64,000 nt of DNA from Parolsenella catena (GTDB lineage Bacteria > Actinomycetota > Coriobacteriia > Coriobacteriales > Atopobiaceae): the NCBI RefSeq assembly GCF_003966955.1, contig NZ_AP019367.1:1240001-1304000 (forward strand), given 5' to 3'. This document shows positions 49,803-59,496 of the stretch, one piece after another. Below the pieces are notes generated by a model. The model was not told the DNA's origin. It saw only the letters and a program-made list of their open reading frames with translations, and searched no databases. How positions within the stretch are numbered: position 1 is the stretch's first letter; each line of letters opens with the position of its first letter. Position numbers and translations under genes: made by a program.

Positions 49803-50510
49803 CTACGCCACGCGAGGCAGCGCCGCGAGCACGATGCTCGCGCAGTGGGCCGCCGCGACCCTCTCGAACGTCGGGTAGTCGACGTTGCCCGAGTCATCGG
49901 CCTTGTCGGAGATGGCGCGGACCACGACAAACGGCACGCCGGCGATGTGGCACGCATGGGCGATGGCCGCGCCCTCCATCTCGCAGCACATCCCGCCGAA
50001 CGTCGAGACGATGCGCTCCTTGGCTGCCGCCGAGCCGATGAACTGGTCACCCGAGCACACGCGACCCTCGAAGACGCTCACGCCCTCGATGTCGCGGGCA
50101 GCCTGCGTAACGGCGCCGCGAAGGCCAGCGTCCGCCTCGAAAGCGACGAGGTGGAGGTCTGGGTGCTCGCCAGGGGCATACCCCAGGGCCGTGACGTCCA
50201 TGTCATGCTCGACGGCGTCCGTGGAGACCACGATGTCGCCGATCTCGATGCGCCCGTCGAGCGACCCCGCGACGCCGGTGTTGATGACGCGGTTGCAACC
50301 CAGCACGCTCACGAGCGCCTGCGCGCACATGGCGGCGTTCACCTTGCCCACGCCGCACTTCACAACGACGACGCCCACGCCCTCGAGCGTGCCCTCGACG
50401 AACTCAAGGCCCGCGAGCTCGTGCGTACGGGCCCCCTCGACCTTGGACTTGAGCAGCGCGACCTCCGAGTCCATCGCGCCGATGATGCCCACCTTGACGT
50501 TCTCGGCCAT
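49803..50510 (-). CDS. mtnN: 5'-methylthioadenosine/S-adenosylhomocysteine nucleosidase
   Basis: Cleaves the by-products of SAM use, methylthioadenosine and S-adenosylhomocysteine, releasing adenine. The 235-residue protein begins VGIIGAMDSEVALLKSK, has VVVKCGVGKVNAAMCAQ, NTGVAGSLD, CCEMEGAAIAHACH and the catalytic aspartate in VVRAISDKADDS. The ATG at 50510 follows GGGGAGACGGCA. A TATAGT about 38 bp upstream (50542-50547) may be its -10. Confidence 0.95.
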   Translation of the reverse strand: MAENVKVGIIGAMDSEVALLKSKVEGARTHELAGLEFVEGTLEGVGVVVVKCGVGKVNAAMCAQALVSVLGCNRVINTGVAGSLDGRIEIGDIVVSTDAVEHDMDVTALGYAPGEHPDLHLVAFEADAGLRGAVTQAARDIEGVSVFEGRVCSGDQFIGSAAAKERIVSTFGGMCCEMEGAAIAHACHIAGVPFVVVRAISDKADDSGNVDYPTFERVAAAHCASIVLAALPRVA

Positions 50511-50670
50511 TGCCGTCTCCCCTCTCTTCTCAGCTCGCATTGACTATAGACCAACGCAGGCGGACGCCCCGAGCTGCGCCGTCCCATTGCAGGCCTCGTT
50601 TTACGTGTCCCAGTGGCTTAGTTCACGTACTACGGAGCCGAGAACGACGTGGACACGCAGAAGCCGGCGC

Positions 50671-54173: not shown

Positions 54174-54215
54174 ACAAAGAGCGGGCGGCCCGGATCGCTT
54201 GTCCGGGCCGCCCGC
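54174..54215 (-). terminator. Terminator of the DUF523-PNP gene
   Basis: A perfect 13-bp GC hairpin (54181-54193 with 54203-54215), followed on the minus strand by TCTTTGTG. It lies 30 bp past the stop and ends the long minus-strand gene series. Confidence 0.88.
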
Positions 54216-54245: not shown

Positions 54246-55454
54246 CTACTTGAGCCGCGCGAGGACACCGCGCACGAGGCGCTCGAAGTCAGCCTCGTGC
54301 TGGGCGGCAACCTCCAGCACGCTCTCGTGCGTGACGCCCGCCTCGCCCGCCATGTTGGCGGCGAGCGTGAGGCCAAGCACGTTCATGCCCAGGGCGTGCG
54401 CCATGATCGCCTCGCATACGAGCGACATGCCGGCAAACGACGCGCCGAGGCATCCCAGGGCCGCGACCTCCGCCGCCGTCTCGAAGCTCGGGCCGAGAAG
54501 TCCGGCGTAGACGCCCTGCTGCAGCTCGATGTGCTCCTGTTGCGCCACGTCTGCCGCAAGCTCGCGCAGGTAGGGCGTGTAGGCGTCCGTCATGCCCACG
54601 AACGGGGAGTCCACGCACGCAAGGTCCTCGTCCTCGACGAGGGGGTTGGCGCCCGTGAGGTTGAGGTGGTCCGTGATGAGGCCGAGGCCCACGTGGCCGC
54701 GCCCGGCGATGGCACCCGTGGAGCAGGCGAAGACGATGTCGCGGCACCCGAGCTTGTGGGCGTGGCGCACGAGCGAGGCCACCTCGGCCGGGCCGTAGCC
54801 CTGGTAGAGGTGGACGCGGCCCGGGTAGACGACGACCGGCACGCCGTCGAGCGTGCCGACCGTGGCCTCGAACCTGTGGCCGGGGATGGGGCGCGCGTGG
54901 GCCGGGAACCCCTCGATGTCCTCGTACGGAATGCGGCGCACGGGCTTCACGAGGCCGGCGAGCGCACCAAGGCCGCTGCCAAGCACGATGGCCACCGGGT
55001 GCTCCACGCTCGCGCGGCACCCCTCGATGACGTTCTCATCAACCACGACGATCCCCTCCCTCTCGAGCGCCCGGGCGCACAGCCCAGAGCCGCTCACGAG
55101 TCTCCCTGTGAAGCTCCCATCGTAGACCAGGCCATGGCCGCAGGCGGGGCTCTTGGCCTTCAGGACGGCCAGCGGCGCCAAGCACTCCCGCGCACGGTCG
55201 AGTGCCACCGCAGCTCCCCTCTCGTAGGCGGCCGTCACGTCGGTGCCAGCCGCGGTGACGACGCGCGCACCACGCAGCTCCGCGGGCGGCCTGGGGCATC
55301 CCAGCCCGCCGTCCATCTCGGGGCAAACGCCCATGACGCGCCCGCCCTCCTCGCTCACGCGCCCGCACAGGGCGGCCACGGAAGCAGAAGGGCGAGCGCC
55401 ACCGTCATAGCGGCAGCGCTCGCCCAACAGACATCTGCTGACGATGACGTCCAC
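54246..55454 (-). CDS. DUF523 (TudS-like) domain fused to purine nucleoside phosphorylase
   Basis: A 402-residue two-domain protein. Residues 1-140 are a full DUF523 domain: VSRCLLGERCRYDGG, GVCPEMDGGLGCPRPPAE, KAKSPACGHGLVYDGSFTG. The cysteines C8, C44 and C105 sit where DUF523 protein TudS, a thiouracil desulfidase, binds its [4Fe-4S] cluster. Residues 150-402 are a PNP: VLGSGLGALAGL, IPGHRFEATVGTLDGVPVVV, CSTGAI, DHLNLTGANPL, AGLLGPSFETAAEVAAL and GMSLVCEAIMAHALGMNVLGL. The fusion suggests one enzyme that cleaves and desulfurates thiolated nucleosides, which is inference. The usual N-terminal helix of PNP is replaced by DUF523. The gene starts seven bases after the SurA-like gene. Confidence 0.88.
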   Translation of the reverse strand: MDVIVSRCLLGERCRYDGGARPSASVAALCGRVSEEGGRVMGVCPEMDGGLGCPRPPAELRGARVVTAAGTDVTAAYERGAAVALDRARECLAPLAVLKAKSPACGHGLVYDGSFTGRLVSGSGLCARALEREGIVVVDENVIEGCRASVEHPVAIVLGSGLGALAGLVKPVRRIPYEDIEGFPAHARPIPGHRFEATVGTLDGVPVVVYPGRVHLYQGYGPAEVASLVRHAHKLGCRDIVFACSTGAIAGRGHVGLGLITDHLNLTGANPLVEDEDLACVDSPFVGMTDAYTPYLRELAADVAQQEHIELQQGVYAGLLGPSFETAAEVAALGCLGASFAGMSLVCEAIMAHALGMNVLGLTLAANMAGEAGVTHESVLEVAAQHEADFERLVRGVLARLK

Positions 55455-55461
55455 GTGGCCC

Positions 55462-56337
55462 CTAGGCGCCGAGCGTGGCGATCTGGATGGTGGCGGCAGA
55501 CAGGATGCCGTTCACGTAGTTGGTCCACTCGTTGCTCGAGGAGCTGGCAGCCTGGGCGTACTGCTGGTAGGCCACGGAGTAGGCGATCTGGGCCTGGGCG
55601 TAGGTGGCGGAGTCGGGCGTCCAGGTCTCGTCCTTGAGGGCCTCGTAGTACGGGCCGTCCGTGCGGGCCCAGGTGTTGCTCGAGGAGTCCCACTCGTCAC
55701 CGAGCAGGCCCACGATGTAGGCGCCGTATTCGGCCGTGGCAGCGTCCTGGTTGTCCTCCGCCGGGGCGGTGGGGGCGTCCGGCATGGTGCCGGCGTCCGT
55801 GGAGCACACCTGCTGCTTGAGCTTGTACATCGCGGCGCTCTGGCGGATAGTCTGCTTGGCCTGGTCCTCCGTGAGCCCGTACTGGGAGGCGATGGAGGAG
55901 ATGTCGGAGGAGCCCAGGATCTGCTCGGCGTAGGTGCCCAGCTCGTCGTCGGAGACGGTGATTCCCTCGTCTGCGGCAACCTGCGCGAGAATCTTGTTGC
56001 GGGCCACGGCGAGCGCGGAGTCGGCGTTGGGCAGCGTGTAGTTGCCGCCGCCGTCCTTCACGGCGTCAAGCGAGCTCTGGGACTCGATGGCGTCGCGCAC
56101 GGTGACGTTCTCGGTCTTGCCCTTGTACGTGTAGGTGGCGATGACCTGGTCCAGGTCGCCCTCCGCCACGGTCGTCTTGCCGGAGAACGACGCCGAGAGG
56201 GCGCTGCCACCCAGCACGAAGTGGCCGAGAAGCACGCCCACGATAAGCGCCACCACGACCGCCGCGGCAACGACGGGCATGCCCAGCTGCCTGGGCGAGG
56301 ACGTGCGGGCGCCCTCATCGCTCTGCTTGTTTGCCAT
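55462..56337 (-). CDS. Membrane-anchored SurA/PrsA-like extracytoplasmic protein
   Basis: A 291-residue protein with one N-terminal membrane helix (about 22-44, VVAAAVVVALIVGVLLGHFV) and an outer domain. The segment ALAVARNKILAQVAADEGITVSDDEL, followed by YGLTEDQAKQTIRQSAAMYKLKQQV, is a SurA-N-like helical chaperone fold. No parvulin (PPIase) domain is seen; the C-terminal part instead ends in a Tyr-, Ala- and Ser-rich stretch. It is probably a foldase-like chaperone without isomerase activity. The ATG at 56337 follows GGGAG at eight bases. It precedes the DUF523-PNP gene in one unit. Confidence 0.75.
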   Translation of the reverse strand: MANKQSDEGARTSSPRQLGMPVVAAAVVVALIVGVLLGHFVLGGSALSASFSGKTTVAEGDLDQVIATYTYKGKTENVTVRDAIESQSSLDAVKDGGGNYTLPNADSALAVARNKILAQVAADEGITVSDDELGTYAEQILGSSDISSIASQYGLTEDQAKQTIRQSAAMYKLKQQVCSTDAGTMPDAPTAPAEDNQDAATAEYGAYIVGLLGDEWDSSSNTWARTDGPYYEALKDETWTPDSATYAQAQIAYSVAYQQYAQAASSSSNEWTNYVNGILSAATIQIATLGA

Positions 56338-56363
56338 ACGAGAAACTCCCTGCTCAATCATGC

Positions 56364-56428: not shown

Positions 56429-57523
56429 CTAGGCGAGCGCGCTCACCGCGCTCGCGACGGCAGCTCCATAGGCGCGCGTGCCCACGGCACCATCCGCGCT
56501 GCCAGTGAGCTGTCGGCGAATGTCTGCCGTGACCTGATCGCCGGCCTGCAGCGTGGAGCGCACGGCCGCGCGGATTCTCGCCGCCGCCTGCCCCTCACCG
56601 AGGTGGTCGAGCATCATGGCAGCGGACAGGATCATGGCCGTGGGGTTGGCGAGGTCCTTGCCCGCGATGTCGGGCGCGCTGCCGTGCGTGGCCTCGAAGA
56701 TGGCCTGGTTGGCACCAATGTTGGCGCCCGGCGCCAGGCCCAGGCCTCCCACGAGCCCCGCGCACAGATCGCTCACGATGTCGCCGTACAGGTTGGGCAG
56801 CACCAGGACGTCGAAGTCGTTCGGGTTCTGCACGAGCCCCATGCACGTGGCGTCCACGATCTTGGCGTCGAAGGCGATGTCGGGGTAGTCCTCGGCGACG
56901 CGCTGGGCCGTGTGCAGGAACAGCCCGTCCGTGCACTTCATGATGTTGGCCTTGTGCACCGCCGTGACCTTGTGGCGGCCGTTGGCGCGGGCGTAGTCGA
57001 ACGCGTAGCGCACGATGCGCTCCGAGCCGCTCACGCTGATGGGCTTGAGCGAGATGGCGGAGTCGGGCTTGATGGTGCCGGCGCCGGCGGAGGCGACCGT
57101 CTCCATGATGGAGTGCGCGCCGTCGCTGCCCTGCTCGAACTCGATGCCCGCGTAGAGGTCCTCGGTGTTCTCGCGCACGATGACGAGGTCCACGTCCTCG
57201 TAGCGGCTGCCGTCGCCGGGCATGGAGGTGCAGGGGCGCACGCAGGCGTACAGGTCGAACGCCCGGCGCAGCGCCACGTTGACGCTGCGGAAGCCCGAGC
57301 CCACCGGCGTGGTGACGGGGCCCTTGATGGCCGTGCCCGTCTCGCGCACGGAGTCCAGGACGCGCTCGGGCAGCGGCGTGCCCTCCTCGTCCATGACCTT
57401 GGCGCCGGCCTGCTGGACGTGCCAGTCGATTCCCACGCCCGTGGCCTCCACGACCTCGCGCATGGCGGCCGAGATCTCCGGGCCGATGCCGTCTCCTGGA
57501 ATGAGCGTTACCTGGTGGCGCAT
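56429..57523 (-). CDS. icd: NAD-type isocitrate dehydrogenase (isocitrate/isopropylmalate family)
   Basis: Beta-decarboxylating dehydrogenase of 364 residues. It has VTLIPGDGIGPEI, GPVTTPVGSGFRSVNVALRR, VIVRENTEDLYAGIEF, the catalytic lysine and tyrosine regions, DVLVLPNLYGDIVSDL and EATHGSAPDIAGKDLANP. The S-x-N before the Arg residues is the isocitrate-type phosphate-loop, and the YACVRPC region resembles NAD-dependent isocitrate dehydrogenase; isopropylmalate dehydrogenase cannot be fully excluded. No leu genes are near. The ATG at 57523 follows GGGGG at five bases. Confidence 0.87.
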   Translation of the reverse strand: MRHQVTLIPGDGIGPEISAAMREVVEATGVGIDWHVQQAGAKVMDEEGTPLPERVLDSVRETGTAIKGPVTTPVGSGFRSVNVALRRAFDLYACVRPCTSMPGDGSRYEDVDLVIVRENTEDLYAGIEFEQGSDGAHSIMETVASAGAGTIKPDSAISLKPISVSGSERIVRYAFDYARANGRHKVTAVHKANIMKCTDGLFLHTAQRVAEDYPDIAFDAKIVDATCMGLVQNPNDFDVLVLPNLYGDIVSDLCAGLVGGLGLAPGANIGANQAIFEATHGSAPDIAGKDLANPTAMILSAAMMLDHLGEGQAAARIRAAVRSTLQAGDQVTADIRRQLTGSADGAVGTRAYGAAVASAVSALA

Positions 57524-57622: not shown

Positions 57623-58243
57623 CTACTTGCCGGCCTCCACGGCGTCGGCGATCTTTGCCGAGCAGGTCTTGACGTAGCCGCGGCCACCCGTGACGTCAAA
57701 GCTGATGCGCTCGACGAGCGCCTGCTTGGAGGCGTCGCTTGCGTTTCCCTCGGCAAACTCAAGCAGGCTGTCAAGCATGTCGCGGTAGCCAAGGTCTCCG
57801 TGGAAGCACTGGATGGCCTCGTCAAGCAGCGGCCAGACCTTGTCGGACAGCTCCGGGGAGGAGGCGCCCAGGCGCGCGAGCAGGCGGAAGGCCTCGATGC
57901 GCACGCGGCTCGAGTTCTCGTCGAACAGCGAGGCCTCGGCGCCCTCGTAGGCCTGCGCGGCCAGCTCCGGGTGGCTCGTGGCGACCTCGCGCAGGGCGCC
58001 GAGCGCCTCCCAGCGCGTCTGGGCCTCGGGGCGGTACAGGGCGTCGACGAGCGCCTCGGTGACGCGCTCGACGTCGGGCTCGAGGCGGTCGGCGTGCTCG
58101 CGGGCCATCTCGGCCAGCGTCGAGGCGGCCTCCTGGCGCGTGCGGCGCACGGGGCCTGCGAGCTCGTCGATGAGACGGTCGACGATGGTGATGACGCCCT
58201 CGCCGAGCTTCCTGCGCTGAGGCGTGTTGTTCTCCTCGGTCAT
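57623..58243 (-). CDS. HEAT-repeat protein
   Basis: A 206-residue all-helical protein. Repeating helix pairs such as TRQEAASTLAEMAREHADRL, TRWEALGALREVATSHPEL and RVRIEAFRLLARLGASSPEL are HEAT-like, which form a curved scaffold for binding proteins or nucleic acid. No catalytic motif. The ATG at 58243 follows GGGAG. It starts 13 bp after the NYN-LOTUS gene, so they are co-expressed and may act together. Confidence 0.8.
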   Translation of the reverse strand: MTEENNTPQRRKLGEGVITIVDRLIDELAGPVRRTRQEAASTLAEMAREHADRLEPDVERVTEALVDALYRPEAQTRWEALGALREVATSHPELAAQAYEGAEASLFDENSSRVRIEAFRLLARLGASSPELSDKVWPLLDEAIQCFHGDLGYRDMLDSLLEFAEGNASDASKQALVERISFDVTGGRGYVKTCSAKIADAVEAGK

Positions 58244-58256
58244 GTGTTCTTCTCCC

Positions 58257-59048
58257 TTACTCGCAAAAACCGTCGACAACGGCCGTGCCGCTGCGCTGGT
58301 CGTTATGGATCTTGATGAGCCCCAGGCTCGAGGCCTCGTTGAGCAGCGCCGTGAACGAGCGGAACCCGTACGTGCGCTCCGAGAACTGGGGCTGCTTGCG
58401 GCGCATGGCCCCCTTGAGCAGGGACGCCAGGATGAAGCCGTCCGTCTCGCGCTGCAGGGCGTCGATCGTCTCGAGCAGCAGCTTGTAGCAGGGGCGCTTC
58501 TCGGCCGTCACGCGGCTCTCGTACTCGGGGATGCCGCCGGGCGAGACGATGTCCTCGTAGAAGATGAACTCGTCGCACACCTCGGCGAGCAGCGAGCTCG
58601 TGGACTCGCGCATGCCGACGCCGATGACGGTCTTGTCGAACTCGCGCAGCTTGGAGACGAGCGGCGAAAAGTCCGAGTCCCCCGACAGGATCGCGAACGT
58701 GTCGATGTGGGTCTTGGTGAGGCACATCTCCATCGCGTCCACCGACAGGCGGATGTCGGCCGAATTCTTGCCCGTGTGCGCGCGGTCCGGGATCTCGATG
58801 AGCTCGACGCCCAGCTCGTGCAGCGGCGTCACGGCGCCCTCGAAGCGCTGCCAGTCGCAGTAGGCGCGCTTGGCCACGATGCGGCCCTTGTCGACGAGAC
58901 GCGCCAGTATCGCCTTGACGTCGGGCGCGGGACCGGGCTGCTGATGGCCCCCGCGCCGGCGCTTGCCCGTCCCAAGCGCCAGGTTCTCGTAGTCTATGAG
59001 CACCGCGATCGTTCCCTGCGGCGCCCCGTTCTGGTTCATGTCCTGCAT
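58257..59048 (-). CDS. NYN-domain RNase-like protein with LOTUS/OST-HTH domain
   Basis: A 263-residue protein. The NYN nuclease domain (about 10-165) has AVLIDYENLALG, NSADIRLSVDAMEM and FAILSGDSDFSPLV, the acidic residues of the PIN/NYN active site, so it probably cuts RNA. A basic insert (RRRGG) follows the first motif. The C-terminal part (about 205-263, DGFILASLLKGAMRRK and FGFRSFTALLNEA-like) is a LOTUS/OST-HTH RNA-binding domain. This pair is known from eukaryotic and bacterial LabA-type proteins. The ATG at 59048 lies just after the preceding stop. HEAT gene follows. Confidence 0.88.
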   Translation of the reverse strand: MQDMNQNGAPQGTIAVLIDYENLALGTGKRRRGGHQQPGPAPDVKAILARLVDKGRIVAKRAYCDWQRFEGAVTPLHELGVELIEIPDRAHTGKNSADIRLSVDAMEMCLTKTHIDTFAILSGDSDFSPLVSKLREFDKTVIGVGMRESTSSLLAEVCDEFIFYEDIVSPGGIPEYESRVTAEKRPCYKLLLETIDALQRETDGFILASLLKGAMRRKQPQFSERTYGFRSFTALLNEASSLGLIKIHNDQRSGTAVVDGFCE

Positions 59049-59052
59049 TGCG

Positions 59053-59496
59053 TTACTTGCCCTCTGCACTCTTGCCCTGCTTGTCCTCGCGCGCATCCGC
59101 CACGCTCATGAGCTCGGGCTCGGCGGCGCCGGTCCTGGCGCGCTTGGCGGCGGCCCTCCTCGCGCGAGCACGCTCGCGGTCGCGCTGGCGGGCGGCGGGC
59201 GTCATGAGGCGGTCCACGAACTTCCAGGGGCCCACCGACTCACCGTAGCCAAACTTGAGGCCGGCCACGGCGCCCGCGACGGCGCCGAAGGCGAACATGC
59301 CGAGCACGACGTAGCCCGTGGCCCACACGACCATGAACAGCAGCGAGCCCGCAAGGATGGCGACGACGTTGGCCGTGGCGTAGCGCGCGGTGTTCTCGCA
59401 GCGCGCGCCCGCCTCGTCGCCGAGGTGAAAGCCCACGACGATGCCGAACACCGCGAACAGCAGGCTCACGACCGTGATGGCGAATCCGTCACTCAC
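59053..59496 (-). CDS. Unknown membrane protein with basic tail
   Basis: I do not recognise this 147-residue protein. It has about three membrane helices (5-24, 42-62, 64-82) then a basic cytoplasmic tail with RDRERARARRAAAKRAR that could bind nucleic acid or phospholipid. The GTG start at 59496 follows GAGGGA, which overlaps the stop of the dehydrogenase gene before it. It is followed by the NYN-LOTUS gene after four bases, so it lies in the same unit. Confidence 0.7.
   Translation of the reverse strand: MSDGFAITVVSLLFAVFGIVVGFHLGDEAGARCENTARYATANVVAILAGSLLFMVVWATGYVVLGMFAFGAVAGAVAGLKFGYGESVGPWKFVDRLMTPAARQRDRERARARRAAAKRARTGAAEPELMSVADAREDKQGKSAEGK

Follow-up and report, generated by a model that had tools for sequence, protein, structure and literature searches.

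An open reading frame in the window, by which we mean the whole 64,000-nucleotide stretch of Parolsenella catena DNA that was analysed, raises the question of what is accomplished by a single chain that joins a desulfidase domain of the TudS family (DUF523) to a purine nucleoside phosphorylase (PNP). A preliminary description had proposed that the chain salvages thiolated nucleosides, by phosphorolysis and desulfuration in one enzyme. The domain names, the cysteine pattern and the conserved fusion stood up to analysis, but the one-enzyme route gained no support from it. The parts of the reading frame, in window coordinates, are:

54246 to 55454, minus strand: whole fusion reading frame, 402 amino acids, GTG start, stop codon at 54246-54248; orthologues are 55-91% identical
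55035 to 55448, minus strand: DUF523/TudS desulfidase domain, residues 3-140 (PF04463, 131.5 bits; 6z92, E 4e-28)
54999 to 55034, minus strand: linker, residues 141-152, within the motif CxxSVEHPVA
54249 to 55013, minus strand: trimeric-type PNP domain, residues 148-402 (PF01048, NF006054, active-site residues and fold)

Both domains are complete, as had been claimed, and are matched by curated models and solved structures. The N-terminal match to PF04463 (DUF523, now named 2-thiour_desulf) passed the Pfam gathering cut-off of 34.7 bits and covered positions 1-139 of the 141 in the profile, and the alignment to 6z92 is to the crystal structure of TudS itself. The C-terminal half was matched by PF01048 (PNP_UDP_1) on residues 153-398 with 120.2 bits, against a Pfam cut-off of 25.1, and by the NCBIfam model NF006054 (purine-nucleoside phosphorylase) on residues 148-400 with 227.2 bits, against a cut-off of 218. 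The full-length chain as modelled by AlphaFold2 had a pLDDT of 93.1 and a pTM of 0.91, and its PNP half superposed on solved trimeric PNPs with Z of about 33 over 246-251 residues; the fold comparison returned PNP chains only, and the identity of the DUF523 half rests on sequence.

The architecture is carried by 80 named genome contigs and by approximately 97 of 396 Coriobacteriia genomes (a tally counted by hand), in syntenic loci, and is therefore neither a chance reading frame nor a misassembly, the latter a danger that the preliminary description had raised. Full-length fusions were found in most of the window's family, the Atopobiaceae, and in part of a second family, where the named carriers are Collinsella and relatives; this answers the earlier suggestion that the spread within Coriobacteriia be checked. 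Among the Atopobiaceae, 85 of the 93 genomes that bear DUF523 have the fusion (one frameshifted and one truncated), and 12 genomes of the Collinsella family have it as well; the carriers span more than 20 genera. Named contigs place it in Olsenella, Parafannyhessea, Tractidigestivibacter, Thermophilibacter, Atopobium and Olegusella, with Kribbibacterium nearby; the surveyed loci are tied to the named contigs by PNP sequences that are the same or almost the same. No full-coverage fusion was found outside Coriobacteriales among 296 genomes of the phylum, where the search gave two long partial matches (G664, an ordinary PNP, and G620), nor was a full fusion found in the plasmids searched. In one Atopobiaceae genome (locus L060 of G044) a frameshift splits the fusion into two overlapping reading frames, through either sequencing error or decay. 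The DUF523-PNP architecture of 54246-55454 is genuine and conserved.

The gene order around the fusion is conserved, and its surroundings in the window comprise the following features:

54181 to 54215, minus strand: strong terminator-like hairpin of 14 pairs, 3' of the fusion
55462 to 56361, minus strand: upstream neighbour, a SurA/PrsA-type secreted foldase-like gene (judged by eye) that ends approximately 8 bases before the fusion start
56429 to 57523, minus strand: gene of the isocitrate/isopropylmalate dehydrogenase family (PF00180), a neighbour kept in part of the lineages
57623 to 58279, minus strand: HEAT-repeat protein, a conserved neighbour (PF13513 at the cut-off; synteny)
58257 to 59096, minus strand: NYN-OST-HTH domain protein, a conserved neighbour (domain search and synteny)

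The conserved order is NYN, HEAT, the dehydrogenase family gene where present, foldase-like gene and fusion. The foldase-like gene, which matched no Pfam or NCBIfam model, neighbours the fusion in 79 of the 80 named loci, as does the HEAT gene (79/80). In the host genome, a single contig of 1.80 Mb, the fusion is the sole DUF523 and likewise the sole PNP-type phosphorylase; the one further gene with PF01048, at 49803-50540, is an MTA/SAH nucleosidase. The genome also encodes ThiI, the enzyme that makes 4-thiouridine (s4U) in tRNA, and we infer from its presence that 4-thio-UMP from tRNA turnover should occur in the cell. ThiI is nearly universal in Coriobacteriia (383 of 396 genomes) and could not be used as a phylogenetic contrast.

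The residues of the N-terminal half were compared with those of TudS. Its cysteines 8, 44 and 105, noted earlier as following the TudS cluster pattern, align with the [4Fe-4S] ligands C10, C43 and C104 of TudS (PMC10611767) as seen in 6z92, and are encoded at:

55431 to 55433, minus strand: Cys8, [4Fe-4S] ligand by alignment (TudS C10), invariant in 37 fusions
55323 to 55325, minus strand: Cys44, [4Fe-4S] ligand by alignment (TudS C43); Glu46, two residues on, corresponds to TudS Glu45
55140 to 55142, minus strand: Cys105, [4Fe-4S] ligand by alignment (TudS C104); Ser102 corresponds to TudS Ser101

In the alignment of 37 fusions, C44, C105, E46, S102, R15 and R55 are as invariant as C8. Known TudS substrates are 4-thiopyrimidines, with 5'-nucleotides preferred, and in docking the TudS residue Arg17 touches the phosphate of 4-thio-UMP (PMC10611767). 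Its counterpart in the fusion is R15, and the invariance of this residue indicates nucleotides as substrates, not the nucleosides used by PNP. One position departs from the pattern. Residue 104, at the place of the second catalytic serine (TudS Ser103), is serine in 34 of the 37 sampled fusions, as it is in every standalone relative that was examined. It is alanine in the window's genus, that is, in the window species and its sister; the sequence SPACG is confined to this genus, most others having SPSCG and a few SPTCG. In the tRNA desulfidase RudS, E51, S111, S113 and R60 are each required for activity, and the mutant S113M is inactive (PMC11417400). These four residues are the counterparts of E46, S102, residue 104 and R55 of the fusion.

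Within the beginning of the DUF523 coding region there is a strong hairpin at 55390-55425 on the minus strand, 12 of whose 15 pairs are G-C, with a T-rich tail after it, and strong folds occur at the same place in four other loci (L005, L023, L030, L043). Perhaps these are merely a by-product of encoding the motif LLGxxCRYDGGxKP.

PNPs act on purine nucleosides, and in the C-terminal half the complete active-site set is present by alignment: S160, H193, R213, H215, Y217, E325, S344, N367 and H376, corresponding in order to S33, H64, R84, H86, Y88, E201, S220, N243 and H257 of human PNP. The half thus retains its phosphate, ribose and purine residues, among them the Glu and Asn that recognize the purine. 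A change in the base pocket specific to the fusion was considered and rejected, as the C-A-T-G loop is found in unfused relatives too. Both halves are under purifying selection: dN/dS was mostly 0.11-0.40 for the DUF523 half and 0.04-0.20 for the PNP half, with values of 0.25 and 0.07, respectively, for the window species and its sister.

Relatives in which the halves stand apart are informative about how closely the two functions are tied. At this locus in a further family, f9 (L059 and L194), DUF523 and PNP lie side by side as distinct genes that follow the HEAT and dehydrogenase genes. In one Atopobiaceae genus (g13) and several Collinsella the same locus has PNP without DUF523, most of these PNP-only loci retaining the linker motif CxPSxEHPVA; in locus L051 a decayed DUF523 stretch was detected upstream of PNP (tblastn, 4e-12), with a stop codon between them. 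Two other Atopobiaceae genera (g5 and g15) present the converse, DUF523 without a working PNP, and in L159 and L161 the DUF523 reading frame runs into a shrunken PNP remnant that BLAST did not report, its start and end being recognized as PNP-like by eye. Because relatives have lost either half at the same locus, and because a genome has DUF523 in either the fused or the standalone form, one taking the place of the other, the halves are functionally separable. That replacement is seen in the copy numbers. All 93 DUF523-bearing Atopobiaceae genomes have one DUF523 match each, as do the 12 fusion genomes of the Collinsella family except G217, which has two matches, both weaker, and a fusion interrupted at residue 50, probably as the result of a broken assembly; 46 genomes of the latter family that lack the fusion have a standalone DUF523 (counted by hand). 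In the genomes surveyed from these two families, fused and standalone DUF523 were never found together, as would be predicted if both did the same job. Most of the Collinsella with a DUF523-less PNP have a standalone DUF523 that belongs to a different clade, while some species (genus g13 and genome G154) lost DUF523 without replacement, which makes its job non-essential.

Phylogenies are consistent with a simple history. The fused DUF523 domains group together (SH-aLRT 93), with the standalone Collinsella DUF523 in another group, and the PNP tree parts the Atopobiaceae from the Collinsella family as vertical descent predicts, requiring no fewer than four or five switches between the fused and unfused states. 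Horizontal transfer from Atopobiaceae to Collinsella was hinted at by the DUF523 tree, but the vertical arrangement, a tree with all Atopobiaceae DUF523 together, was not rejected (p-AU 0.46). The simplest account is an ancestral adjacent pair of genes, one fusion before the two families split, and then losses of one half or the other on separate occasions.

Two further observations concern the unfused genes. The f9 PNPs (L059, 1838-2626, minus strand; L194, 6263-7093, plus strand) keep the phosphate and ribose residues, but Leu replaces the purine-binding Glu, and Ser or His replaces the Asn; with these residues lost, base specificity has probably changed, and the enzymes may accept another base, possibly that of a thiopyrimidine nucleoside, which would link them to TudS. 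In some Collinsella (L180, L181, L182) the standalone DUF523 shares its strand with ThiI, from which it is separated by approximately 5 kb that include the ComEA, ComEC and DNA polymerase III delta genes.

We consider it probable that the fusion is a bifunctional nucleotide-salvage protein, derived from two joined neighbour genes, whose activities, desulfuration of s4U nucleotides and purine nucleoside phosphorolysis, are most likely independent. Independence is suggested because either half has been kept alone and because unrelated standalone copies can take the place of the TudS half. In the salvage route of the preliminary description, PNP would free a thiolated base (6-thioguanine or 6-mercaptopurine, for example) for DUF523 to desulfurate, or the order would be reversed. 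Two nucleoside enzymes have indeed been joined and conserved, and the f9 genes make their pairing older than the fusion. Against this, the substrates reported for TudS are thiopyrimidines, with a preference for nucleotides (PMC10611767), the phosphate-contacting arginine is invariant, the purine-site residues of PNP are kept, either half survives alone at the same locus, and a standalone DUF523 can stand in for the fused one. In addition, we found no report of TudS acting on thiopurines among the papers listed by a weak literature search in which clinical papers were dominant. The fused genes of other lineages also weaken any argument from fusion to shared substrate, since DUF523 is a promiscuous fusion partner: in genomes of family f2 it is N-terminal to DUF5662 (L034, L036, L038, L040) or to a GNAT acetyltransferase (L039). 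We regard single-chain thionucleoside salvage as improbable for these reasons, and give the same slim chance to the idea that a thiolated nucleoside is processed in two genuine steps by the fusion or by the older f9 pair.

Two other explanations assign one half a mainly structural part. In the window's genus the DUF523 half might be catalytically impaired and serve principally as an N-terminus for the PNP trimer. Weak activity is conceivable because of Ala104, which is peculiar to this genus, and the loss of activity in the equivalent RudS mutant S113M (PMC11417400), and DUF523 has been lost repeatedly among relatives. Yet the three cysteines, Glu46, Ser102, Arg15 and Arg55 are all kept, a dN/dS of 0.25 indicates that this half is under selection in the genus, and S113M inserts a bulky methionine, of which alanine may be a milder counterpart; impairment thus seems unlikely, although less so than the salvage route. 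Alternatively, the fusion might desulfurate intact tRNA with the PNP half as scaffold, as RudS is likewise a TudS fusion (PMC11417400). The domain added here, however, is a whole PNP that retains its active site; DUF1722 is absent from the reading frame, Pfam giving PF01048 in its place, and we saw no evidence of RudS-like tRNA binding in the fusion. Action on tRNA is the least credible of these readings.

In the bifunctional protein that we favour, both activities and their substrates are read from the families to which the halves belong. The N-terminal half would hold a [4Fe-4S] cluster by C8, C44 and C105, the free iron of which would take up sulfur from a 4-thiouracil compound, the likeliest being 4-thio-UMP released as tRNA s4U is turned over, and E46 and S102 would drive hydrolysis to UMP and sulfide. 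In the window species and its sister, which have Ala104, this desulfidase activity could be weak. The C-terminal half, as a trimer, would convert inosine or guanosine and phosphate to the base and ribose-1-phosphate. Both reactions would salvage products of RNA breakdown, which would explain an operon pairing that the fusion later fixed. The gain from fusion was probably co-expression and trimerisation of TudS, not the passage of substrate between sites, but the fact that more than 20 genera have retained it could point to a functional link closer than co-expression.

At this locus nature has left a clear record of two genes becoming one and of either half being shed afterwards. Atopobiaceae and Collinsella, which are oral, gut and rumen bacteria, are probable holders of TudS activity, a useful starting point should gut bacteria be tested with thiopyrimidine or thiopurine drugs.

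The closest known systems are TudS, RudS and the trimeric PNPs. Like TudS (PF04463; 6z92-6z96), it has the full domain, the three cluster cysteines and counterparts of Glu45, Ser101 and Arg17, whereas described TudS enzymes are standalone and the domain here is fused to PNP, with Ser103 replaced by Ala in the window's genus. Like the trimeric PNPs (PunA/PNP-I; NF006054; 6tk9, 8swu), it has the whole fold (Z 33) and the active-site residues, being 44% identical to 6tk9 in this half, but approximately the first 20 residues of a trimeric PNP are replaced by the DUF523 domain and linker, and the classical loop NAAGG has become C-A/S-T/S-G-A, a form that the unfused relatives in these lineages also have. 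RudS (TudS-DUF1722) resembles it in having the TudS domain N-terminal in a two-domain protein and differs in its partner, which in the fusion is a complete PNP with catalytic residues. No description of a DUF523-PNP fusion was found in the open-access papers mentioning DUF523 that were searched. Within the TudS family, 58.9% of proteins are standalone and 40.1% are DUF1722 fusions, leaving approximately 1% for others (PMC11417400), and the protein described here adds a two-enzyme architecture to a family in which the known fusions are almost all to DUF1722.
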